NCBI RefSeq assembly: GCF_003967355.1
Contig: NZ_BIFH01000045.1
Coordinates: 1,371 to 65,370 of the forward strand
Reading direction: 5' to 3'
Length of the DNA: 64,000 nucleotides
From: Embleya hyalina
Lineage (GTDB): Bacteria; Actinomycetota; Actinomycetes; Streptomycetales; Streptomycetaceae
In this document: piece after piece, positions 17,020 through 64,000 of the stretch
How the letters are laid out: each line of letters begins with the position of its first letter
Numbering within the stretch: the first letter of the stretch is position 1
Program-made: the position numbers and the translations under genes
Notes under the pieces: generated by a model
Database searches by the model: none
Told to the model about the DNA's origin: nothing
Seen by the model: the letters and a program-made list of their open reading frames with translations, nothing else

Positions 17020-18426
17020 CTAACCCTTCGCGCGATGGCGTACCTGTACCTCGGTGAACGCCTCCACGCCCCAGCGGCCGTTCTCGGAGCCGACGCCGCT
17101 CCACTTGTGGCCGCCGAAGGGCTGGTCCGGGTGGACCGCGAAGTGCGTGTTGATCCAGGCCGTCCCGCATTCCAGCTCGCCCGCCACCTCGGCGGCGCGA
17201 TCGGCGTCGGCGCCCCAGACCGAGCCGCACAGGCCGAAGTGGGACGCGTTGGCGCGCTCCACCACGTCGTCGAGCGAGGTGTACCGGACCACCGGAAGCA
17301 CCGGACCGAACTGCTCCTCGTCGACGATCCGAAAGCCGTCGTCGACGCCCGCCAGGACGGTCGGCTCGTGGAAGTATCCGGGGCCGTCGATCGCCCTGCC
17401 GCCCGCCGCGACCCGCGCACCTCGACCGACCGCGTCCGCCACCAGTTCGACGACCCGCTCCCACTGCGGCCTGTTGTTCAGGGGCCCGTACTGCACGCCC
17501 TCCTCCAGGCCGTTGCCCACCTTCGCCGTGCGCGCGATCGCGGCCAGCGCCTCGACCAGGTCGTCGTACAGGTGCTCCGGCGCGTAGACGCGCTTGATCG
17601 CCGAACAGAGCTGCCCGTTGTTCTGGAAGGCGGAGCCGAACAACTTCGGCGCGATCTCGGCCGGGTCCGCGTCGTCCAGCACGATCGCGGGATCGTTGCC
17701 GCCCAGTTCGAGCGTCACCCGCTTGAGGTCGCTCGCGGCCGCCTCGGCGACCCGCTTGCCGGTCGCGACGCTGCCGGTGAAGCTGATCTTCCGGGGCACG
17801 TGATGCGCCGTCATGCGCGCGCCGAGCGGATCCCGCCCGCTGACCACGTTCAGCACTCCCGGCGGCAGCACCTCGCGCATCATCTCGCCGAACACCAGCG
17901 TGGTGAGCGGCGTGTAGGGCGAGGGTTTGAGCACCATCGTGTTGCCCGCGAGCAGCGCCGGGGCGACCTTCCAACAGGCCAGCATGAGCGGGAAGTTCCA
18001 CGGAGTGATCGCCGCGACCACGCCCATCGGCCGACGCACCACCTCGACGTGGGCCGCGTCGTCGTCGCGGATCACGTCGTACGGAATCGGCAGATCGGCG
18101 AAGTGCTTCAGCCAGTATCCGGAGCCGATGATCTCGAACGCGGCGTCGGCCAGCGGCTTGCCCTGCTCACGGGTCAGCACGGGGGCCAGCTCGTTCGCCC
18201 TGCCCATCAGCAGGTCGCCCGCCGCGTGCAGGGCCTTGCGCCGCCCGCCCTCGTCCCTGCGCCAGGACCGGTAGGCGTGCGCGGCCGCGTCGAAGGCGGC
18301 GTCGAGCTGCTCCGCGCCACAGTCGGGCGCCTCGGCACGCACCTCGCCCAGGGCCGGATCGACAACCCCGAACGTCGCGTCCGCCGCCACACTTTCGCCA
18401 CCAATGGTCATGGTGTACCGCGGCAT
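17020..18426 (-). CDS. NAD(P)-dependent aldehyde dehydrogenase family protein
   Basis: A 468-residue aldehyde dehydrogenase. Seen are TPWNFPLM, KPSPYTPL, SFTGSVATG (cofactor region), LELGGNDPAIV (catalytic Glu) and NNGQLCSAIKRVY (nucleophile Cys). Start is ATG 18426 behind GGAGGAG. It is divergent from the methyltransferase gene. It could supply or detoxify an aldehyde, conceivably one released by the neighbouring carotenoid-oxygenase homologue, but it lacks the shared promoter element and may lie outside the cluster. Confidence 0.9.
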   Translation of the reverse strand: MPRYTMTIGGESVAADATFGVVDPALGEVRAEAPDCGAEQLDAAFDAAAHAYRSWRRDEGGRRKALHAAGDLLMGRANELAPVLTREQGKPLADAAFEIIGSGYWLKHFADLPIPYDVIRDDDAAHVEVVRRPMGVVAAITPWNFPLMLACWKVAPALLAGNTMVLKPSPYTPLTTLVFGEMMREVLPPGVLNVVSGRDPLGARMTAHHVPRKISFTGSVATGKRVAEAAASDLKRVTLELGGNDPAIVLDDADPAEIAPKLFGSAFQNNGQLCSAIKRVYAPEHLYDDLVEALAAIARTAKVGNGLEEGVQYGPLNNRPQWERVVELVADAVGRGARVAAGGRAIDGPGYFHEPTVLAGVDDGFRIVDEEQFGPVLPVVRYTSLDDVVERANASHFGLCGSVWGADADRAAEVAGELECGTAWINTHFAVHPDQPFGGHKWSGVGSENGRWGVEAFTEVQVRHRAKG

Positions 18427-18517
18427 TTCCGCTCCTCCGAGTCGCCGGGCCTGCTTTCGCACCGTACCGCCGTACCGGTATCGCACCCCACCCTTCAATG
18501 CGGTTCTGGGGGTCACA

Positions 18518-18565
18518 CCTAGGGGCCCTTAGGGGGTTACCCGGCTCTCCCGCTTCGCCAATACT
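18518..18565 (+). promoter_or_regulatory. Shared cluster promoter element, copy 1
   Basis: CTAGGGG and TTAGGGG (18519-18535) stand immediately before TTACCC (18537-18542). AATACT follows 17 bp later (18560-18565), giving a plausible -35/-10 pair. The same layout is at 23708-23755. Tandem heptamers abutting -35 resemble activator sites of the SARP kind. It is the only clear element in the 18427-18785 gap. Confidence 0.6.
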
Positions 18566-18785: not shown

Positions 18786-19604
18786 ATGAAAAGCGTTTCC
18801 GCCACCGCCCTGTGGACCGCCGCCGTTCGGGCCGGCGAGTCGCAGCGCGAGGACGCGTTGTTCGTCGACGAGTTGGCCGAGGAACTGGCCGGCGAGGAGG
18901 GCCACGCGCTGCGTGCCCGCTACGAACGGCCCGGCGCGGCGAACAGCCTCGCGATCCGTACCCGCTATCTGGACGAGGTCATCGCCGAGCACTCCGGGTT
19001 CCGGCAGGTCGTGTTCCTCGCGGCCGGCCTCGACACCCGTTCGGTACGCACGAGTTGGCCGGCCGGCACCACGCTCTTCGAGGTGGACCACGCCGACCTG
19101 CTGGAGTGGAAGGAGCAGCGGCTCGCCGAACTCGACGCCAAGCACGGCTGCGACCGGCGCACGGTGGGCGTCGATCTCACCGAGGACTGGCAGCGGGCAC
19201 TGCTCGCGGCGGGCTGGGATCCCTCCGTACCGACCCTGTGGGTCGCCGAGGGCCTGCTCTACTACCTGCCCGAAACGGCCGCGAACGATCTGGTGCGGGC
19301 GATCGCCGACATCGCGCCGATCGGCAGCGTGTTCACCGGGGACATCGTCAGCCACCAGTTCCTGATCTCCGAGCACGACTTCCCGCAACATTGCCTTCCG
19401 CTGTTGGCGGAGGACGGCTCTCCCTGGCAGTTCGGATCCGACCAGCCGGAAAGCCTGCTGTCCGCGGGTGGTTGGGAGCCGACCGTGATCAAGTGCGTGG
19501 GGGACGAGGGCGCTTCGTTCGGGCGCTGGAACGGGCCGCCCATCCCCCGGCACGTTCCCGGGATCCCGCGCTTCTTCCTGTTCACCGCGACGAAGGTCGG
19601 GTGA
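18786..19604 (+). CDS. Class I SAM-dependent methyltransferase (leucine carboxyl methyltransferase/Ppm family)
   Basis: A 272-residue SAM-dependent methyltransferase of the Ppm1/LCMT-like group common in actinobacterial natural product clusters. VVFLAAGLDTRSVR is the SAM-binding loop, FEVDHADLLEWK holds the acidic residue that binds SAM, and WVAEGLLYYLPE is the third motif. Members often methylate carboxyl or hydroxyl oxygens. Start is ATG 18786 with AAGGAG at good spacing. It leads a two-gene unit with the carotenoid oxygenase (45-bp gap) under the shared promoter element. Confidence 0.85.
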   Translation: MKSVSATALWTAAVRAGESQREDALFVDELAEELAGEEGHALRARYERPGAANSLAIRTRYLDEVIAEHSGFRQVVFLAAGLDTRSVRTSWPAGTTLFEVDHADLLEWKEQRLAELDAKHGCDRRTVGVDLTEDWQRALLAAGWDPSVPTLWVAEGLLYYLPETAANDLVRAIADIAPIGSVFTGDIVSHQFLISEHDFPQHCLPLLAEDGSPWQFGSDQPESLLSAGGWEPTVIKCVGDEGASFGRWNGPPIPRHVPGIPRFFLFTATKVG

Positions 19605-19649: not shown

Positions 19650-21008
19650 TTGACCACGCCCGCCCCACACCTCGTGGGCAACTTCGCCCCCGTCGTCGAC
19701 GAACTCACCTCCCACGACCTGCCGGTGACCGGCAGCGTCCCCCGGGGGCTGACCGGCTGGTATCTGCGCAACGGCCCCAATCCGCACGAGGCCGCCTCCG
19801 CCCACTGGTTCCTCGGTTCCGGCATGGTCCACGGCGTGCGGCTCGAGGCGGGACGCGCCACGTCCTACCGCAACCGCTGGGTTCGGAACTCGACCTTCAC
19901 CGACGACGCCATGGTCTACGACGAACTCGGCAACCGGGATCTCACCGCCGGGGCCTCGAACACGAGCGTCGTGCGCCACGCCGGTCGCGTCCTGGCCCTG
20001 TCCGAGTCGACCCTCCCCTATCTGCTCACCCCCGAGCTGGACACGGCCGGTGCGCACGACTTCGGGGGGAAACTCCGCACCGCGATGACCGCGCATCCCA
20101 AGACCTGCCCGACCACGGGCGAGCTGCACTTCTTCGGATGCGGGATGCTCACCGCCCCGTACCTCACCTACCACCGGACGAACGCCGCCGGCGAGCTGAC
20201 GGTCAGCCGCGACATCACCGGGGTCGGCTCGACGATGATGCACGACTTCGCGTTGACCGCCGAGCACGTGGTCTTCATGGATCTGCCGGTCGTCTTCGAC
20301 GTCGAACGGGCGATCTCCGGCCTGCCCATGCCCTACCGGTGGGACCCCTCGTACGCCGCCCGCCTGGGCGTGCTGAGGCGCGACGACCCGCACGGCGAGG
20401 TGCGCTGGTTCGACATCGACCCCTGCTATGTCTTCCACGTGCCCAACGCCCACGACGAAGGCGACGGCATCGTCCTGAGCGTCATCCGCTATCCGGAGCT
20501 GTGGCGCACGGACAGCGGTGAGGCGTATCCGGTCGCGTCGCTCTGGCGGTGGACGGTGAACCTGACCACCGGGAAGGTCACCGAGGAGCAACTCGACGAC
20601 CGCAACACCGAGTTCCCCCGCATCGACGATCGGCTGGCCGGGCTCGACGCCCGGCACGTGCACACCGTGGTCGCCGCCTCGCACCCCCGGCACGACCCCG
20701 TCCCCGGGGCGCTGCTGCGCTACGACATGCACACCGGCAGCGTCACCGAGCACACCTTCGGCCCGGGCCGGATCCCCAGCGAGGCCGCCTTCGCGCCGGC
20801 GGACGACCGCCCCGGCGGCGAGGGCTGGCTCATGACGTTCGTCTACGACGCCTCGACCGACAAGAGCGACCTGGTCATCGTGGACGCCGGCGACCTGGGC
20901 GCGCCGCCCGTGGCCACCATTCATCTGCCGCAACGTGTCCCGTACGGCTTCCACGGCAGTTGGCTTCCGGACCCGGGCACCCGCGTCGGGGACGTCGGGC
21001 GCCGTTGA
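19650..21008 (+). CDS. Carotenoid oxygenase family protein (polyene-cleaving candidate)
   Basis: A 452-residue RPE65/carotenoid cleavage dioxygenase homologue, a seven-bladed propeller with a non-haem Fe(II) held by four His. All four are visible in context: His149 (TAHPKTC), His198 (MMHDFALT), His263 (VFHVPNA) and His435 (GFHGSWL); GWYLRNGPNPH is the family N-terminal block. Known members split conjugated C=C bonds of carotenoids, retinoids or stilbenes to aldehydes. No carotenoid genes are nearby, but a pentaene-making PKS is. The start is TTG 19650 after GAGAGGA. Cleavage or other oxidation of the PKS polyene is inference. Confidence 0.88.
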   Translation: MTTPAPHLVGNFAPVVDELTSHDLPVTGSVPRGLTGWYLRNGPNPHEAASAHWFLGSGMVHGVRLEAGRATSYRNRWVRNSTFTDDAMVYDELGNRDLTAGASNTSVVRHAGRVLALSESTLPYLLTPELDTAGAHDFGGKLRTAMTAHPKTCPTTGELHFFGCGMLTAPYLTYHRTNAAGELTVSRDITGVGSTMMHDFALTAEHVVFMDLPVVFDVERAISGLPMPYRWDPSYAARLGVLRRDDPHGEVRWFDIDPCYVFHVPNAHDEGDGIVLSVIRYPELWRTDSGEAYPVASLWRWTVNLTTGKVTEEQLDDRNTEFPRIDDRLAGLDARHVHTVVAASHPRHDPVPGALLRYDMHTGSVTEHTFGPGRIPSEAAFAPADDRPGGEGWLMTFVYDASTDKSDLVIVDAGDLGAPPVATIHLPQRVPYGFHGSWLPDPGTRVGDVGRR

Positions 21009-21143: not shown

Positions 21144-22184
21144 ATGCCCGAGTTTGTCGACCCCGACCAGCTGCATGCACGGGCATTCGGGCAGGCGGTA
21201 CGCATCGGGCAGTTCCGGAGCGACCGGATTGCCGAAGTCCTCGGCCTTTCTCCGGAAAAGGTCGACGGCATTCGCCGGGATCTGCTGACCCTCAGACTTC
21301 TCCAGCCGTCGGCGCATGATGCGGACGTCCTTGTTCCGGTGAGCCCGGAGGCCGCGGCAACCGAATTGGTGCGAATTCCGGAGGACGAAATACGCAGCCT
21401 GCAGCAGGAGATCGTGGGGACCAGGCTGCGGCTGCAAAAGCTCCTGCCCGCCTATCTGGAAGGGCGGCGCCTGCGCGCACAGCTCGAACAGAGCCTGGAG
21501 CCGCTGGAAGCCGCCGACCAGATCAGGTGGATGCTCAAGGACCAGACGGAGCGCTGCCGCAGCGAGATCCTGCTCAGCCGCCGCGGCGACCCGCTGCCGT
21601 GCGACTCCGTCGGAAGCATGCATCCGGAACTCCTCGACGCCGCGCGGCGCGGGATCCGGGTCCGGGCGATCTACCGGCACGCGACCCTCGCCGATCAGAC
21701 GGTCCATACGCACATGGCGGAACTCGCCGAGGCCGGGGCCCTGGTCCGGACGCACGCCGAACCGGCCGGTCAGCTGATCCTCTTCGGCACCGAGGTGGCG
21801 ATCGTGTTCGGCCGCGAGCCCTCGCCCACCGCGGAGTCGGGAAGCACCCCGGAGCCTCCCGCCGTCGCCGTGCGCGACGCGACCGTCGTCGGCCATCTGC
21901 GTGCGACCTTCGAACAGGCGTGGGACGCGGCGTCGTCCGCGCCGGACACGACCGGCGACGCCAAGGCGCTGGGCCAGTTACAGCTGTCCATCGTGCGTCT
22001 GCTGGCGCAGGGCTTCAAGGACGACGTGGTGGCGCGACGGCTGGGCATGTCGGTGCGCAAGTGCCGCCGGCACATCAAGGAGATCATGAACGAGCTCGAC
22101 GCCGACAGCCGCTTCCAGGCCGGCGTACAGGCCACGCTGAACGGCTCCGTCAAGGGCGACGACGAGCCGGCGGCCCGCCGCTGA
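21144..22184 (+). CDS. LuxR-type HTH transcriptional regulator (cluster-situated, TTA-containing)
   Basis: A 346-residue regulator without a receiver domain. The N-terminal 55 residues look like a TrmB-type winged helix (DRIAEVLGLSPEKVDGIRRDLLTLRLL). The middle resembles the PLD-like sensor region seen in many Streptomyces cluster regulators. The C terminus (about 280-325: LAQGFKDDVVARRLGMSVRKCRRHIKEIM) is a LuxR-type HTH. Leu279 is encoded by TTA (21978-21980), the rare codon read by the bldA tRNA, so translation is probably tied to development. Start is ATG 21144 with GGAGG. It is a good candidate to activate the shared promoter elements. Confidence 0.85.
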   Translation: MPEFVDPDQLHARAFGQAVRIGQFRSDRIAEVLGLSPEKVDGIRRDLLTLRLLQPSAHDADVLVPVSPEAAATELVRIPEDEIRSLQQEIVGTRLRLQKLLPAYLEGRRLRAQLEQSLEPLEAADQIRWMLKDQTERCRSEILLSRRGDPLPCDSVGSMHPELLDAARRGIRVRAIYRHATLADQTVHTHMAELAEAGALVRTHAEPAGQLILFGTEVAIVFGREPSPTAESGSTPEPPAVAVRDATVVGHLRATFEQAWDAASSAPDTTGDAKALGQLQLSIVRLLAQGFKDDVVARRLGMSVRKCRRHIKEIMNELDADSRFQAGVQATLNGSVKGDDEPAARR

Positions 22185-22277: not shown

Positions 22278-23471
22278 TCAGGCCGTCGCCGGCGGGCGCG
22301 CGGCCGGGTTCTCCACCTCGGCCCGCAGCAGGAAACCGCCCGTGCGTACCCGGCCCGTCGTGAGATCCCCCCCGAGCGCGCGCAATCGCTCGGCGAGGCC
22401 CAACAGGCCGTAGCCGCCGCCCGCTTCCGCCCAGGCGTCCTTGGCGAAGATCCGACCGTTGCCGTCGTCCTCCAGTTCCAGCCACGTCTCCCCGAACCGC
22501 ACCTCGCACCGCCGGGCCCGGCTGTGTTTGATCACGTTGGTCACCCCTTCGCGGAGCACATAGGCGAACACGTCGCGCAGTTCGAGACGCACCACGTCGC
22601 CCGTCCCGGGCAGGGTCGCGGAGATCCCCGCCGCGCGCAGCGCCAGTACGGCGTTCGCCAACTCGTCGTCCAGGGACACCGACCGTGTGTCGAAGATCGT
22701 GCTGCGGATCTCCCGCATCGCCTTGCGGGACAGTTCCTCGATGTCGCGGACCTCCGTGTGTACGGTGTCCCGGTCCACGTCGCTCTCCAGCATCCTGCGC
22801 GCGACGCCCCCCTTGAGCGCGATCGTGGCCACCGTGTGGCCCAGCACGTCGTGCAGATCCCTGGCCAGCCGATTCCGCTCGTCCACGACCGACTGGTGGG
22901 CGATGACCGCTCGGGCGGCGCTCAACTGCGACACGACCCGGGCGAGCAGGAACAGCGACGAGAACGACAACGTCAGCAGCACCAGCAGCCACGTCCCGTC
23001 CCAGTCGACCCGGCCGTCGACCACCCGGGTGGCGATCACCTGGGCCAACGCCACCCCGAGTCCGACCAGTCGGCTCGCCTCGGCCGGCAGCAGCACGACC
23101 GCCGCCACGATCGCGTAGGCGAGGTGGACCAGCATCGTGACATCTCCCGTGACGACCGGCAGGGCCGCACCCACCACGAGGAGCCAGCCGACCATCAGGG
23201 ACCGTCGCCACCGCGATTGCCGCTGCCCGACCTGCGTGACGACCAGGAAGCTCCCCGCGTAGAGCACGAGATCCGCGACCAGGAGCGACCAGCGCAGCCC
23301 CGTCCACCTCCCCCCGTCCATGTGCACGGTGACGAGCGGCACCAGGACGATGAGGAGCACCACCAGGACGTGTCCCCGCAGCCGGGCCGGTCCGGACTGC
23401 TGCCACGCCCCCACGCCCTGTCCCTCGACGGGCCACTGCCGAGGTCCGAAGCGCGTCGAGTCGACGTTCAC
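22278..23471 (-). CDS. Sensor histidine kinase (NarL/DesK type), orphan
   Basis: A 397-residue membrane kinase. About five or six hydrophobic segments fill residues 30-190. The dimerisation/phosphoacceptor box is ERNRLARDLHDVLGHTVATIA (HisKA_3). The ATPase domain shows an N box (LREGVTNVIKHS), G1 (LEDDGNG) and G2 (GGYGLLGLAERL). The start GTG 23471 has no strong Shine-Dalgarno, so the N terminus is uncertain. No receiver-domain gene adjoins it, and the neighbouring LuxR-type regulator has no REC domain. The gene is convergent with that regulator. Confidence 0.87.
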   Translation of the reverse strand: MNVDSTRFGPRQWPVEGQGVGAWQQSGPARLRGHVLVVLLIVLVPLVTVHMDGGRWTGLRWSLLVADLVLYAGSFLVVTQVGQRQSRWRRSLMVGWLLVVGAALPVVTGDVTMLVHLAYAIVAAVVLLPAEASRLVGLGVALAQVIATRVVDGRVDWDGTWLLVLLTLSFSSLFLLARVVSQLSAARAVIAHQSVVDERNRLARDLHDVLGHTVATIALKGGVARRMLESDVDRDTVHTEVRDIEELSRKAMREIRSTIFDTRSVSLDDELANAVLALRAAGISATLPGTGDVVRLELRDVFAYVLREGVTNVIKHSRARRCEVRFGETWLELEDDGNGRIFAKDAWAEAGGGYGLLGLAERLRALGGDLTTGRVRTGGFLLRAEVENPAARPPATA

Positions 23472-23707: not shown

Positions 23708-23755
23708 CTTAGGGGGGCGTTAGGGGTTACCCGCCTCTCACACTCCGGAAACAAT
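23708..23755 (+). promoter_or_regulatory. Shared cluster promoter element, copy 2
   Basis: TTAGGGG (23709-23715) and TTAGGGG (23720-23726) with a 4-nt gap (11-bp period) lead directly into TTACCC (23727-23732). AACAAT lies 17 bp beyond. The downstream CCTCTC also matches the other copy (GCTCTC). It should drive the FG-GAP gene and the PKS-TE-NRPS genes behind it. Nothing else stands out in the 23472-23795 gap. Confidence 0.6.
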
Positions 23756-23795: not shown

Positions 23796-24692
23796 ATGGC
23801 GCCGATATTTGCGAACGGTCAATGCCGATCATTCCGAGGCAACGGGCGGCCCGATCTGCTGGTGCGGAATGCCGAGACCGGCGAGCTCTTCGTCCACCCG
23901 CACAGCGGCACGTTCAACGGGACCGACACCTTCGAGGCGCCGGTCAAAATCGCCGAGGGATTCGGCTGGCGGCGCTTCTTCTTCGTGCGCGCGGTGGACG
24001 CCACGGGAGACGGCCGGGCGGACATCTGTGCGTTCAGCGTGAGCGAATTCAACCCGGGCGAGGACGGCGAGTTCGGCTTCTTCCTGCTCCGGAACATCGG
24101 AAAGCCCGGCGAGATCGGCCCGTTCGCCGATCCGCTCCGGGTCTCCGGCAAGCGCGACGACGGCCGGAGGTGGGAGACGATCGGCTTCGCCGACCTGACC
24201 GGCACGGGCACCGACGACACCTTCTCCCGGGGCGAGGGGGCCGGAAACGTGGACGCGTTCGTGCACCTCGACGCCGGAGTGGTGAAAAACCACACCTACA
24301 GCCGCGACCCCGTCCCGCTCACCGAGATCACCGTCGACGACTTCCCGTTCGCCATGGCCGACTTCACCGGCAACGGCAATCTCGATCTGCTCGTGCGCCG
24401 CGCGAACGGGGACCTCGACCTCTACGAGTTCCCGGACCGACCCGGCACCCCGGCCGGGGCGGCCGGCGGCGGCACCTGGTACACCATCGCGCACGGTTGG
24501 CACGACATGTCGATGATGACGCTCACCGACATCGACCTCGACGGCCGGCCCGACCTGCTGGGTCTGCGCCCCGACGGCACCCTCAATGCCTACGCGCACT
24601 CCGGGAAGTTCGACCCGGACAACCCGCTCGCCACGCTCCGGGAGCCCGTCGCCGTCGGGACCGGATTCGAGAAATGTGACGTGATCAGCTGA
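23796..24692 (+). CDS. FG-GAP/VCBS repeat beta-propeller protein without signal peptide
   Basis: A 298-residue protein with at least four Ca-binding-type repeat loops (DATGDGRADI, DLTGTGTDD, DFTGNGNLDLL, DIDLDGRPDLL), each near an FG-GAP-like strand. This suggests a beta-propeller of the kind found in integrin alpha chains and secreted bacterial VCBS proteins. The N terminus (MAPIFANGQCRSFRGNGRPD) has no hydrophobic signal, so it is probably cytoplasmic, which is unusual. Start is ATG 23796 after AAGAGGAG. It sits directly behind the shared promoter element and ahead of the giant PKS. Function is unknown; a binding or scaffold role is speculative. Confidence 0.75.
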   Translation: MAPIFANGQCRSFRGNGRPDLLVRNAETGELFVHPHSGTFNGTDTFEAPVKIAEGFGWRRFFFVRAVDATGDGRADICAFSVSEFNPGEDGEFGFFLLRNIGKPGEIGPFADPLRVSGKRDDGRRWETIGFADLTGTGTDDTFSRGEGAGNVDAFVHLDAGVVKNHTYSRDPVPLTEITVDDFPFAMADFTGNGNLDLLVRRANGDLDLYEFPDRPGTPAGAAGGGTWYTIAHGWHDMSMMTLTDIDLDGRPDLLGLRPDGTLNAYAHSGKFDPDNPLATLREPVAVGTGFEKCDVIS

Positions 24693-59965: not shown

Positions 59966-60817
59966 ATGAACCTCAACACCACTTGGACCACCCTTCGTTC
60001 GAGCTCGAAGGCCACTGTTTCGGGCGGCTCGGACGAACTGATCCTCTGCGCGGATTTCCACACGACGGGCCGTCCGGAAGCCGGATTCGCCGAGCTGGTG
60101 GCGCGGCTCGACCACGACGCCACGTTCTGGCATGTCAACCCTCCGGTCGTCGCCCCCGACTCCGGGACGGCGGCGCCGGCCTACGTGCGTTCCTGGCTGG
60201 AGCCGGTGCGCGCGCAAGGGGCGCCGGTGCGCGCGGTCTTCGGGTACTGCGTGGGCGCCGTGTACGCGGCGGCGCTGGCCGACGAGTTGGCCCTGGTGCA
60301 GGAAGAGGCGCCCCAGGTCCTGCTGTTCGATCCCGAGCCGACCGCCATGGCGACCATTCGCCATCAGTTCGGCAATGTCTTCGGCATGCTCTCGTCGATC
60401 CTCGTCGAGGAGGACGTGGCGGAGACCGAGGGCGAGGTGGAGCGCCTGATTCGGGTCGAGGGCATGACGGTGGGGAACTACGCCGCGCAGCTGTACACGA
60501 CGTTCCGCCGGGTCGGTGAGCGGGCGTTCGAGCGGGCGGGCCTGGATCAGGAGTACGGCGCCGAGATGTGGGCGCTGTTCAGTTCGTTCCTCTCCTACCT
60601 GAGCTTCGCCGACGGGCTGGATCCGCGCGATCGGTGGCTGACGTCCACCGCGCTCAGCTCGTCCGGCGAATACAACGGCCTCAACCGCCTGCGCGGCACC
60701 GGCGAGTTGGGCGGGGGCGAGTTGGTCGCCCGGGAGATCCGCTTCGAGGCCGGCCACGGCGATCTGCTGCGTTCGGACGGCGTCGCGCAGACCGTCGGCA
60801 AACTTTTGGAGAGGTGA
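59966..60817 (+). CDS. Thioesterase-like alpha/beta hydrolase with Cys nucleophile
   Basis: A 283-residue alpha/beta-hydrolase-type protein. The nucleophile elbow is GYCVGA, with Cys95 where type II thioesterases have Ser. LLFDPEP could supply the acid, and His264 (EAGHGDLL) is the likely base. Cys-type thioesterase domains are known in some NRPS systems, where they form strained or amide products. It may release, edit or cyclise intermediates here. Start is ATG 59966 behind AGGAAGCAGGGAAG. Its stop overlaps or nearly touches the NRPS start, so the two are coupled. The overall match is distant, so a non-catalytic role cannot be excluded. Confidence 0.65.
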   Translation: MNLNTTWTTLRSSSKATVSGGSDELILCADFHTTGRPEAGFAELVARLDHDATFWHVNPPVVAPDSGTAAPAYVRSWLEPVRAQGAPVRAVFGYCVGAVYAAALADELALVQEEAPQVLLFDPEPTAMATIRHQFGNVFGMLSSILVEEDVAETEGEVERLIRVEGMTVGNYAAQLYTTFRRVGERAFERAGLDQEYGAEMWALFSSFLSYLSFADGLDPRDRWLTSTALSSSGEYNGLNRLRGTGELGGGELVAREIRFEAGHGDLLRSDGVAQTVGKLLER

Positions 60818-60819
60818 CG

Positions 60820-63800
60820 GTGACCACCGATCGTATGTCCGAGCAGGTCTCGCAGTTCGACATCCCGCGGCAGCAGGTCGGGCCCGATCCGGTCCCGCGG
60901 GCGGACGGCGAGCGGGCCTCGCACAAGGAGGAAGCACTCTGGCTGCTGGAGGAGTTCGTGCCCGGCACGGGTGTGAACAACCTCAGTGTCGCGTTCCGGG
61001 TGGAGGGGCGGCTGCGCCGGTCGGTCCTGCTGGAGACGGTCACGCGGCTGCTGCGCCGGCACGAGGTGTTGCGGACGGTTTTTCGTACGAAGGCCGCCGG
61101 GTTGATGCGGGAGGTGCTGCGGCCGGAGGAGAGCGATCTTCGGATCGTGGCGGGCGATCCGGGACCGGAGGGCGCGCGGGCGTGGCTCACCCGGTTCGTC
61201 GCGGAGCCGTTCCGGCCGGACGGCGGGCTGCTGGTGCGCGCCGCGGTCGTGCCGGAGGCGTCCGGTGAGGTGTTCTGTCTGGCCGTCCACCACTCGGTGT
61301 TCGACGGCCTGTCGTCGGCGCTGCTGCTGACCGAGTGCGTTTCCCTGTACAACACCCTCGCCTCGGGCGGTGTGCCGGGACCGGAGACCGTGGTGCCCGC
61401 TTGGCGGGAGCCGACACCGAACCCCGCCAGTGCGCGGTTCTGGCGCGGGAAGCTGGACGGGTTCCGGGCCACCGAGCTGGATCTGTGGTGTCAGAAACCG
61501 GATGCGTCGGTGACCACGCTCGCCGGCGACGTGCTCAACCACGCGCTCTCCCCGGCCGCCCGCGACGCCGTGCGCCGGATGCGGCGCGAGTTGCGGGCGC
61601 CGGAGTCGGTCGTGTTGTTGGCGGCGTACAGCGTGCTCCTGGCCGCGCACGGCGCGGGGCCCGACCTCACGGTCGGATCACCCGTGAGTGTGCGCTCCGC
61701 GGAGGCGGCGCGGACGATCGGCTACCACATCAACGTGCTCACGCTGCGCACCCCGGTCGATCGGGCGGAGTGTTTCCGGGAGTTCGTGCGTTCGACACGG
61801 CGGACGTTCATGGAGGCGATGGCGCACGCCGACTACCCGGTGGACGATCTCCTCGAGGTGGTGGAGCGGGACGGCGGATCGTGGCGGAACAACCTGTTCC
61901 GGCACACGTTCAACTATGTCCCGGCGGCCACGGACGGGGAGTTCGTGCTGGACGGGCAGCGGGCCGAAGCGGTGGTGGTGGAGAACAGCTCCAGCAAGTT
62001 CGACCTGGAGTTCTTCGTGACCTCCACCGCGACGGACATCAAGGTGCGGGCGGCGTTCTACGTCGACGTCCTGGACCGGGCGGACGTGGAGCTGCTGGTG
62101 GCCCGCTACGACGAGTTGCTGGTGACGCTCGCGCAGTGGCCCGACCGGGCGCTGGCGGAGATACCGGTGTGGTGCGAGCGGGACCGCCGGGTGATCGGGT
62201 CGGCCAATGCGACGGATCGCCCGGTGGAGCCGACGACCGTGCTGGAGTCGATCGCCCGCCGCGTCCGCGCGTCCGGCGCGGCGGAGTCGGGTGCCGACGC
62301 GGAGGCGGTCCTCGACGGGGGACGCCGGGTCGGTATCCGGAGGTTGTGGGCCGCGGCCGAGGCGACCCGCGACCGGCTGTTCGAGGCCGGCGTCGGCCGG
62401 GGCGACGTGGTCGCCCTGCTGGCCGCGCGGGGGCCCGAGCTGGCCGCGGCGACGATCGGCGTGTGGTTGGCCGGGGCCGTGTATCTGCCGCTGGAGCCGA
62501 GCCATCCCGAGCAGCGCATCTCCTACCAACTCGACGACTCGGGCGCCGCCGCGGTTGTGGTGGGCCCGGGGATCACGGTCGCCGGGGAGCGCAGGGTCCT
62601 GCCGCTGGTGGACGTGGACTCGGTGCGGCCGGTGACCGGCGACGTGCTCGCCGTGAACCCCGTCGGGCCGCTGGACCACGCGTACCTGATCTACACCTCG
62701 GGCTCCACGGGCCTGCCCAAGGGAACCCTGCTCGACCACCGCAACCTCGCCAACCTCGTCGCGCACTTCGCCGACGAGTTGTCGGTGGGCCCCGAGGACA
62801 CCGTGTTGTGGCTGACCACGTTCAGCTTCGACATCTCGGCCCTGGAACTCTTCCTGCCGCTGGTGTCGGGCGGGCGGCTGGCGGTGGCCCCCGACGACGC
62901 CCGCACGCAGGGCGAACCACTGGCCCGGGTGCTGCGCGACCACGACGTCTCGGTGCTGCAGGCCACCCCGACCACCTGGCGTCTGGTCGTCGAGGAGGTC
63001 GCCGAACACCTGGCGGGCCGTCGGGTGCTCAGCGGTGGCGAGCCGCTGCCGGCGGTGCTCGCCCGGCGGCTGGGCGCGACGGGGTGCGACCTGTACAACG
63101 TGTACGGCCCCACGGAGACCACGATCTGGTCCACCTCGGGCCGGATCGACCGGGAGTCCGCCGACGGCCGGGTGGACGTGGGCCGCCCGATCGCCAACAC
63201 CCGGGTGTACGTGGCGGATCCGGACGGTCGGGCGCTGCCGCTGGGGGTGCGCGGCGAGTTGTGCATCGCGGGCGAGGGCGTGGCGGTCGGCTACCACGAT
63301 CGTCCGGAGCTGACGGCGGCCCGGTTCGGCGAGCATCCGCCGTACGGCCGTTTCTACCGCACGGGCGATCTGGCGAGGTGGACCGGGGACGGGCGGCTGG
63401 AGATCCTCGGGCGGCTGGACCGCCAGGTCAAGCTGCGGGGCAACCGGATCGAACTCGGCGAGATCGAGGCGGTCCTGCTGTCCCACCCGGACGTGGTCGC
63501 CGCCGCGGTGGTGGTCGCCGGCGACCCGAGTGCCGATGCGCTGCTGTGCGCCTTCGTGGTGGCTCCGGAGCGGCCCGAGGTGGTTTCGGAACTGTGGGAG
63601 TACGCGCACGGTTCGCTGCCTGTTTCCGCGACGCCTCAGGAGTTCGTGGCCGTGGACGCCTTCCCGATGACCGGCAACGACAAGGTGGATTATCCGGCAC
63701 TCGCCCGGCAGGCGTCGGCACGGCGTCGGTCGGCCGCCGAGGAGCCGCGCGCCGACGCGTCGGCCGCCGGCGGCTCCGGTGACCGGGACGAGCTGGTGGA

Positions 63801-64000
63801 GGTACTGGTCGGGTTGTGGGGCACGCTGCTCGAACGCGGCGGGCTGCACGCGGACGCCAATTTCTTCGCGCATGGCGGGCATTCGCTGCTCGGTGTACGG
63901 CTGTTGCAGGAGGTCCGGGTGGCGACGCGGGTGCGTCTGAAGCTCAAGGACCTCTTCGACGCGCCGACTCCGGCCGGGCTCGCCGCGAAGGTGCGTACGG
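60820..64000 (+). CDS. Non-ribosomal peptide synthetase, C-A-PCP (partial, runs off the window)
   Basis: Over 1,060 residues are visible. The condensation domain has an intact HHSVFDG (His157-Gly163). The adenylation domain has YTSGSTGLPKG (about 623), FSFDISALELF, NVYGPTETT (about 760) and the A10 Lys in NDKVDY. The PCP has GGHSLL with Ser1022. Aligning by eye to GrsA gives the pocket code D-I-L-Q-L-G-V-I-W-K, one change from a glycine code I recall (DILQLGLIWK). The first 45 residues may be a docking segment for the PKS tail. GTG 60820 is preferred (GGAGAGG 5 nt upstream); GTG 60814, overlapping the previous stop, is possible. The end lies beyond 64000. Confidence 0.92.
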   Translation, partial: MTTDRMSEQVSQFDIPRQQVGPDPVPRADGERASHKEEALWLLEEFVPGTGVNNLSVAFRVEGRLRRSVLLETVTRLLRRHEVLRTVFRTKAAGLMREVLRPEESDLRIVAGDPGPEGARAWLTRFVAEPFRPDGGLLVRAAVVPEASGEVFCLAVHHSVFDGLSSALLLTECVSLYNTLASGGVPGPETVVPAWREPTPNPASARFWRGKLDGFRATELDLWCQKPDASVTTLAGDVLNHALSPAARDAVRRMRRELRAPESVVLLAAYSVLLAAHGAGPDLTVGSPVSVRSAEAARTIGYHINVLTLRTPVDRAECFREFVRSTRRTFMEAMAHADYPVDDLLEVVERDGGSWRNNLFRHTFNYVPAATDGEFVLDGQRAEAVVVENSSSKFDLEFFVTSTATDIKVRAAFYVDVLDRADVELLVARYDELLVTLAQWPDRALAEIPVWCERDRRVIGSANATDRPVEPTTVLESIARRVRASGAAESGADAEAVLDGGRRVGIRRLWAAAEATRDRLFEAGVGRGDVVALLAARGPELAAATIGVWLAGAVYLPLEPSHPEQRISYQLDDSGAAAVVVGPGITVAGERRVLPLVDVDSVRPVTGDVLAVNPVGPLDHAYLIYTSGSTGLPKGTLLDHRNLANLVAHFADELSVGPEDTVLWLTTFSFDISALELFLPLVSGGRLAVAPDDARTQGEPLARVLRDHDVSVLQATPTTWRLVVEEVAEHLAGRRVLSGGEPLPAVLARRLGATGCDLYNVYGPTETTIWSTSGRIDRESADGRVDVGRPIANTRVYVADPDGRALPLGVRGELCIAGEGVAVGYHDRPELTAARFGEHPPYGRFYRTGDLARWTGDGRLEILGRLDRQVKLRGNRIELGEIEAVLLSHPDVVAAAVVVAGDPSADALLCAFVVAPERPEVVSELWEYAHGSLPVSATPQEFVAVDAFPMTGNDKVDYPALARQASARRRSAAEEPRADASAAGGSGDRDELVEVLVGLWGTLLERGGLHADANFFAHGGHSLLGVRLLQEVRVATRVRLKLKDLFDAPTPAGLAAKVRT

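Follow-up and report, generated by a model that had tools for sequence, protein, structure and literature searches.

A carotenoid cleavage oxygenase gene of a polyene tetramate-type PKS-NRPS cluster in Embleya hyalina encodes a candidate polyketide-polyene cleaving enzyme

A gene of the carotenoid cleavage oxygenase (CCO) family was found to belong to a modular polyketide synthase (PKS) cluster in a 64,000-nucleotide stretch of Embleya hyalina DNA (hereafter the window; its contig extends past it on both sides). We propose, with a probability of about 0.55, that this CCO has been recruited to a cluster for a long-polyene tetramic acid and cuts the polyene of that cluster, the neighbouring aldehyde dehydrogenase (ALDH) oxidising the product and a methyltransferase (MT) possibly esterifying it. 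Action of the CCO on the polyene of its own cluster seems likely, while the full succession of cutting, oxidation and methylation has somewhat less than an even chance. Module order, product, substrate, cut site, order of steps and ester are all what we infer from the sequences.

The CCO gene apparently encodes a functional RPE65-family oxygenase

The gene under study occupies positions 19650 to 21008 on the forward strand, where the ORF list of the window gives an open frame of 452 codons for amino acids, beginning with a TTG start codon preceded by a ribosome-site-like GAGAGGA. A reading of this DNA made earlier without database searches (the sequence-only reading) had called a CCO homologue here, and the Pfam profile PF03055 agrees along its entire length (1-469 of 469, E 3.2e-113, 379.7 bits against a cut-off of 27). 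In an alignment of 43 sequences, H149, H198, H263 and H435 were invariant, as was E378, and E119 and E321 were kept in at least 90% of the sequences. The four histidines, already picked out in the sequence-only reading, are presumably the iron ligands, and we take E119, E321 and E378 to be the second-shell glutamates. An AlphaFold model built from 28 sequences reached a mean pLDDT of 88.7, and its top PDB match in Foldseek was plant carotenoid cleavage dioxygenase 1 (CCD1; TMq 0.86); structures of CCD1, VP14, LsdA and ACO were among the 50 matches listed, with TMq values of 0.82-0.88. Taken together, the protein is apparently a functional non-haem-iron oxygenase of the RPE65 family.

Its best NCBIfam model was that of the 8'-apo-carotenoid 13,14-cleaving dioxygenase (NF052295), at 408.2 bits and below the equivalog cut-off of 675. 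The lignostilbene dioxygenase model (NF053778) gave 213.1 bits, below its equivalog cut-off of 800. Thus, the CCO is a member of the family and no confident member of either named subfamily.

Gene order and a common promoter element tie the CCO to the PKS cluster

The CCO is preceded, at a distance of 45 bp, by a gene for an LCM-type SAM methyltransferase (MT; 18786 to 19604, forward strand; PF04072, E 1e-49; TIGR00027 over cut-off; start chosen by eye), with which it is probably co-transcribed. The solved relatives of the MT are putative methyltransferases, and the LCM family includes carboxyl methyltransferases. Divergent from this pair runs the ALDH gene (17020 to 18429, reverse strand; PF00171, E 3e-145; likely start at 18429 by eye), whose product carries GQLC and ELGG motifs. 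On the other side of the CCO follow genes for a LuxR-type regulator (21144 to 22184, forward strand; PF00196), a sensor histidine kinase (HK; 22278 to 23471, reverse strand; PF07730) and an FG-GAP repeat protein (23796 to 24692, forward strand; PF13517), and then the first PKS gene.

The nearest relative of the CCO in the genome collection (83% identity) is found in Streptomyces sp. AcH 505, where ALDH, MT, CCO, LuxR, HK, FG-GAP and PKS genes stand in the same order and orientation as in the window. Beyond the PKS, the AcH 505 stretch continues with cyclase, NRPS, response regulator and minus-strand PKS genes, as does the window's contig, and the large LuxR-type regulator with an AAA domain that the contig also carries is conserved there too. 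Identities were 84.6% for ALDH, 80.5% for MT and 87.6% for FG-GAP, and dN/dS ratios were similarly low for CCO (0.21), ALDH (0.21), MT (0.25) and four other genes (0.19-0.32). The conservation of gene order ends on the left at the ALDH: only one of the 22 AcH 505 ORFs to its left, a histidine kinase at 30% identity, matches the window's contig anywhere. Hence, the CCO belongs to the PKS cluster, as the sequence-only reading had held, and queries of the genome collection with CCO, FG-GAP and cyclase found the full arrangement from CCO to PKS in two genomes only.

Some further features of these loci were observed. Just left of the ALDH, AcH 505 has a second pair of HK and response-regulator genes that the window lacks; its kinase is the 30% match already mentioned, and its response regulator (L013:6805-7404), not one of those 22 ORFs, is 48% identical to that of the window's cluster. 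The FG-GAP gene, located between HK and PKS, showed the highest identity of the seven genes compared with AcH 505, and it is also present in the related clusters of genomes G053 and G313 described below. A relationship of its product to the enediyne UnbV protein was considered and rejected (best E 0.086, no meaningful similarity).

Two copies of the pattern TAGGGGN{3,4}TTAGGGG occur in the window, against 0.00 expected from 100 shuffles: TAGGGGCCCTTAGGGG at 18520 to 18535 (forward strand), in the divergent region between ALDH and MT, and TAGGGGGGCGTTAGGGG at 23710 to 23726 (forward strand), ahead of the FG-GAP gene and the PKS. The 12.05 Mb genome has three copies, two of them in the cluster, and none of a control pattern. 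Close forms were seen by eye at both equivalent promoters of AcH 505. These counts are post hoc, since the pattern was derived from the counted sites, but its rarity and conservation stand. The first copy precedes the MT gene, itself separated from the CCO by 45 bp, and would therefore serve MT and CCO together as their promoter; the promoter element that the sequence-only reading had described as common to CCO and PKS is thereby located ahead of the pair. The third genomic copy lies at G000:C27:157144-157160, away from the cluster.

The assembly line is predicted to make a polyene of up to ten conjugated double bonds

The PKS had been described from the window as one for a conjugated pentaene, a description that we reject: five double bonds are what the first PKS alone would give, and the contig goes on with three more PKS proteins and an NRPS, so that this first protein is just one section of a PKS-NRPS-Dieckmann tetramate line with four PKS proteins and up to ten consecutive DH-KR modules. 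Domains were called with HMMs made from the window's own PKS, and modules were ordered by colinearity. PKS1 (24743 to 59842, forward strand) has a KSQ-AT-ACP loading module, a first module (M1) in which the DH is degenerate, without the active-site His motif, while the KR looks intact by eye, and five KS-AT-DH-KR-ACP modules (M2-M6), in each of which a KR accompanies a DH that retains the motif. PKS2 (85897 to 112359 in window numbering, minus strand) contributes five further DH-KR modules. These also retain the DH His motif, which is thus kept in 10 of 10 modules from M2 to M11. PKS3 comprises a KR-only module and one with a GHSQG/YASH-type AT, presumably methylmalonyl-specific by the usual rule, and room for an ER; this ER, in M13, is suggested solely by a gap of ~530 residues. 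PKS4 has a second AT of the GHSQG/YASH type with DH-KR, then the final module M15, whose KR matched weakly (44 bits) and has a nucleotide-binding motif that looks degenerate by eye.

PKS1 is followed by a gene for an NcmC-type Dieckmann cyclase (59966 to 60817, forward strand; 283 aa; no Pfam match; phmmer to the NcmC chain 6e6t, E 3.2e-45) and by an NRPS module, C-A-PCP (60568 to 64000, forward strand, with the ORF ending at 64038, beyond the window, and translation probably starting downstream of the cyclase stop codon). The residues D-I-L-Q-L-G-V-I-W, read by eye from the A domain, resemble what we take to be a glycine code. A C-A-PCP module and a Dieckmann cyclase are features of tetramate PKS-NRPS clusters, as is a beta-keto final PKS module, the point on which M15 with its weakly matching KR bears, and the predicted product is a polyene tetramic acid. 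By colinearity, this would be an acetate-started chain with a beta-hydroxy group and at most ten conjugated C=C bonds, followed by a few methylated positions and a tetramic acid derived from glycine, and the predicted polyene would be of carotenoid length.

The products of the window and AcH 505 clusters may differ, given the differences between their PKSs. The AcH 505 PKS1 ORF has four intact DH-KR modules after M1, compared with five in the window, and holds one of the 10 runs of N in the AcH 505 stretch; one AcH 505 PKS2 fragment carries a GHSQG/YASH-type AT that is absent from the window's PKS2.

Tetramate PKS-NRPS clusters with a discrete Dieckmann cyclase, such as that of nocamycin, resemble the window's cluster in their NcmC-type cyclase and terminal C-A-PCP module, whereas a run of as many as ten DH-KR modules and the presence of CCO, ALDH and MT genes set the window's cluster apart. 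Alpha-lipomycin is an example of a polyene tetramate. Among the open-licence papers listed for polyene tetramates and for AcH 505, none had a cluster that could be matched to that of the window or of AcH 505, and no chemistry was found for either; oleficin is mentioned solely as a name in the excerpt of PMC6155160.

Proposed role of the CCO and its absence from related clusters

According to our proposal, the CCO would catalyse an Fe(II)-dependent dioxygenation of one of the up to ten C=C bonds installed by M2-M11, yielding two aldehydes. The cut would most likely fall near the starter end, with loss of a small hydroxy-aldehyde, while the polyene aldehyde would stay. The divergent ALDH would oxidise this aldehyde to an acid, which the LCM-type MT may cap; a methyl ester is plausible, although MTs of this type do not necessarily have carboxylates as substrates. 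In this way, an oxidised terminus would be introduced into a plain acetate-started chain.

Related clusters offer a comparison. When 394 genomes of the family were queried with the FG-GAP protein, two relatives beyond the own genome were found, G053 and G313, both of which carry homologous PKS, NRPS and cyclase genes. A cyclase query of 384 genomes of the class added G527 and G022 (43%); in G527, on a contig of only 9.2 kb, the end of PKS1, the cyclase and the NRPS are 58-66% identical and keep their order. The genomes of G053 and G313 had no CCO match at E <= 1e-20 in a search in which AcH 505 was positive, and G527 and G022 had none at the same threshold in a search set holding no positive control. 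The presence of related PKS-NRPS-cyclase clusters in genomes where no CCO was detected (G053, G313 and G527) implies that its step is not needed for this class and, judging from these searches, the CCO is an accessory of one cluster branch. Thus, the expectation of the sequence-only reading that homologous clusters would contain the gene holds for the closest one, AcH 505, while three more distant ones lie in genomes (G053, G313 and G527) that gave no CCO match. In the G053 cluster, two AMP-binding enzymes stand ahead of an ACP-KS-AT-DH start and probably provide another starter acid, whereas the window's line starts via KSQ. This contrast between G053 (no CCO match, probably another starter) and the window, a single comparison, fits a role of the CCO at the chain end.

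The same absence from related clusters is also expected if the CCO acts on the cluster's polyene for turnover, self-protection or control of photo-damage, with the ALDH clearing the aldehydes, and the common promoter element and the proximity of the genes fit such a role equally well. Nevertheless, we regard it as unlikely: MT and ALDH are conserved together with the CCO at similar dN/dS, a degradation route has no evident place for an MT, and the MT-CCO pair bears the promoter element of the PKS and no separate control.

Carotenoids as the substrate, and the origin of the CCO

A more conventional explanation is that the CCO cleaves carotenoids or apocarotenoids, either of foreign origin or produced by other genes of the genome, and stands in the cluster by chance or as a signalling accessory. 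The sequence-only reading had found no carotenoid genes in the window, and our profile searches extend this, as far as they reach, to the genome, which is 97.9% complete. Only two SQS_PSY matches were detected in it; they are adjacent and correspond to the hopanoid enzymes HpnC (309.0 bits against a cut-off of 250.45) and HpnD (288.6 against 278.6), so that no phytoene synthase was found in this genome with that profile, and its best crtI_fam match stayed below cut-off (215.9 against 238.1 bits). The search is able to find a carotenoid operon, as demonstrated by a genome of the same genus (G003) in which an SQS_PSY match and an over-cut-off crtI_fam match lie side by side. Therefore, the host has no detectable carotenoid pathway, and the usual CCO substrate seems to be missing. 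In AcH 505, a third gene scores over the SQS_PSY cut-off in addition to two that are likely HpnC and HpnD, so this is claimed for the window's genome only.

Several data speak for a carotenoid substrate: the top-scoring NCBIfam model, even if matched under its cut-off, is an apo-carotenoid dioxygenase, AcH 505 has the third SQS_PSY gene just mentioned, and the window's genome contains three further CCO genes, which make scavenged carotenoids or other roles possible in general. In addition, the relatives of the CCO by sequence are ordinary stand-alone actinobacterial CCOs, mycobacterial ones included, and carotenoid or apocarotenoid activity may consequently persist in it. Set against this are the lack of a detected phytoene synthase or over-cut-off crtI_fam match in the own genome and the fact that position in the cluster and promoter are kept in another species, which render this explanation improbable.

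Apart from that of AcH 505, the other 79 of 80 CCO loci encode proteins with 47-70% identity to the window's CCO. In the tree, the CCOs of the window and AcH 505 were joined with full support within a group of 13 rows, mostly from Streptomyces and Nocardia; L062, L066, L099 and L009 (frame) and L080 and L095 (stops) had been left out, and L103 was kept despite an abnormally long branch.

A conserved protein of ~200 aa, membrane-bound-looking by eye, is encoded just upstream of the CCO in all 16 relatives tested (L014-L026, L030, L080 and L123; 62-70% identical, plus one plasmid homologue), the query protein coming from one of them; seven of these upstream proteins were scanned, with no Pfam match at E <= 1e-5. 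The protein is absent from the window's contig, the AcH 505 stretch and two paralogue loci, and its presence in 16 of 16 relatives suggests that the window's CCO has changed partners. Thus, the window's CCO shares with other actinobacterial CCOs the PF03055 profile, the four His and three Glu residues and the predicted fold, but differs from them in its location in a PKS-NRPS cluster with ALDH and MT, the lack of the ~200-aa partner and a host in which no carotenoid pathway was detected.

RPE65 is an isomerohydrolase within the CCO family, and the CCO could accordingly bind or isomerise the polyene without cleavage and set its double-bond geometry. We consider this very improbable: both sequence and fold place the CCO nearest to solved dioxygenases that cleave their substrates, and the ALDH next to it points to an aldehyde as product. 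The CCO also has weak similarity to RPE65 chains, restricted to ~70 N-terminal residues, a point not decisive alone because the animal beta-carotene oxygenase 7wh0, a cleaving enzyme, gave a similar result.

Precedents for oxidative processing of polyketide polyenes

CrtP, an enzyme that enters the comparison below, is CrtI-like and unrelated to RPE65. The sequence-only reading had presented a polyketide polyene as a new use for the CCO family. As a reaction, this has been proposed before: in the text available from PMC11727611, a polyketide polyene is suggested to be cleaved oxidatively, or oxidised at its end, with participation of an aldehyde dehydrogenase in the limocrocin (Lim18/Lim16) and simocyclinone (SimC4/SmcC4) pathways, and cleavage of a polyketide polyene by Fma-ABM is described for fumagillin. 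Both the simocyclinone and limocrocin systems resemble the window's cluster in combining an oxidase, an aldehyde dehydrogenase and a polyene-making PKS, the product being a predicted one in the case of the window. Lim18, by contrast, is an ABM-type monooxygenase, and SmcC4 is grouped with CrtP in a carotenoid-oxygenase family (PMC11727611), a comparison made here by description. Moreover, the chains of simocyclinone and limocrocin come from discrete iterative enzymes, unlike that of the window's modular PKS. For simocyclinone, the excerpts of PMC5812520 and PMC5321127 attribute the tetraene to such enzymes, the former leaving the role of the simocyclinone type I PKS unknown, and the earlier PMC4451461, in the part available, still calls the assembly of the tetraene unclear. 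Fma-ABM matches the role proposed for the CCO, oxidative cleavage of a polyketide polyene, but is a fungal monooxygenase of a clade apart.

What would be new is an RPE65-family enzyme doing this chemistry, whose type has a precedent as a proposal; no relevant paper on an RPE65-family CCO in a modular PKS or enediyne cluster was found in the open-licence PMC literature. If our proposal is true, a family of carotenoid and stilbene enzymes gains polyketide polyenes as a class of substrates, and an oxidised chain end from an acetate-primed modular PKS is explained. It would also provide a handle for genome mining of shortened polyenes and a testable oxygenase for enediyne clusters.

A second CCO clade near enediyne-type genes

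On the Streptomyces plasmids of NBC_00887, NBC_00726 and NBC_00523, a different CCO was observed beside an annotated enediyne biosynthesis protein and a type I PKS. These enediyne-side CCOs are 39-40% identical to that of the window. Among the 394 family genomes, 32 have a CCO matching the plasmid enediyne-side CCO at E <= 1e-110. All 21 CCOs with at least 61% identity are on one contig with a UnbV-type gene, 7-30 kb apart, compared with none of the 11 at 50% identity or less; in these 21 genomes, it is the UnbV-type gene alone that marks the link to enediynes. Conversely, 21 of the 30 genomes with a UnbV of at least 68% identity have an enediyne-side CCO on the UnbV contig, while none of the 18 genomes whose UnbV is more distant (44-52%) has a match to this CCO at E <= 1e-110. 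The enediyne-linked CCO clade is set apart from the window's CCO in the tree.

Enediyne PKSs make linear polyenes. The association supports, without proving, the idea of repeated pairings between CCOs and polyene-making PKSs. More tentatively, RPE65-family oxygenases might be recurrent, overlooked cutters of polyketide polyenes that were separately recruited by tetramate and by some enediyne clusters and set the chain end, a generalisation to which we give roughly one chance in three.

KS domains were detected in the flanks (up to 10 kb, many shorter) of two of the 80 CCO loci, those of AcH 505 and L017, in the latter ~8 kb away and near the locus edge. They were commoner near hand-chosen loci: three of nine plasmid loci (L128, L138 and L139), the nine (H1, H4-H7, H9 and H25-H27) having been selected among the matches listed, 30 of 104 records with a CCO. 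Two of the three paralogue loci of the own genome also have a KS nearby, on C55 (148 bits) and C18 (96 bits). The CCO on C55 (L010:2772-10809) appears in the tree as sister to the enediyne-linked clade, on a long branch that makes its placement unsure, and lies 76 bp downstream of the gene for a 2204-aa KS/KR/DH protein with no AT by Pfam.
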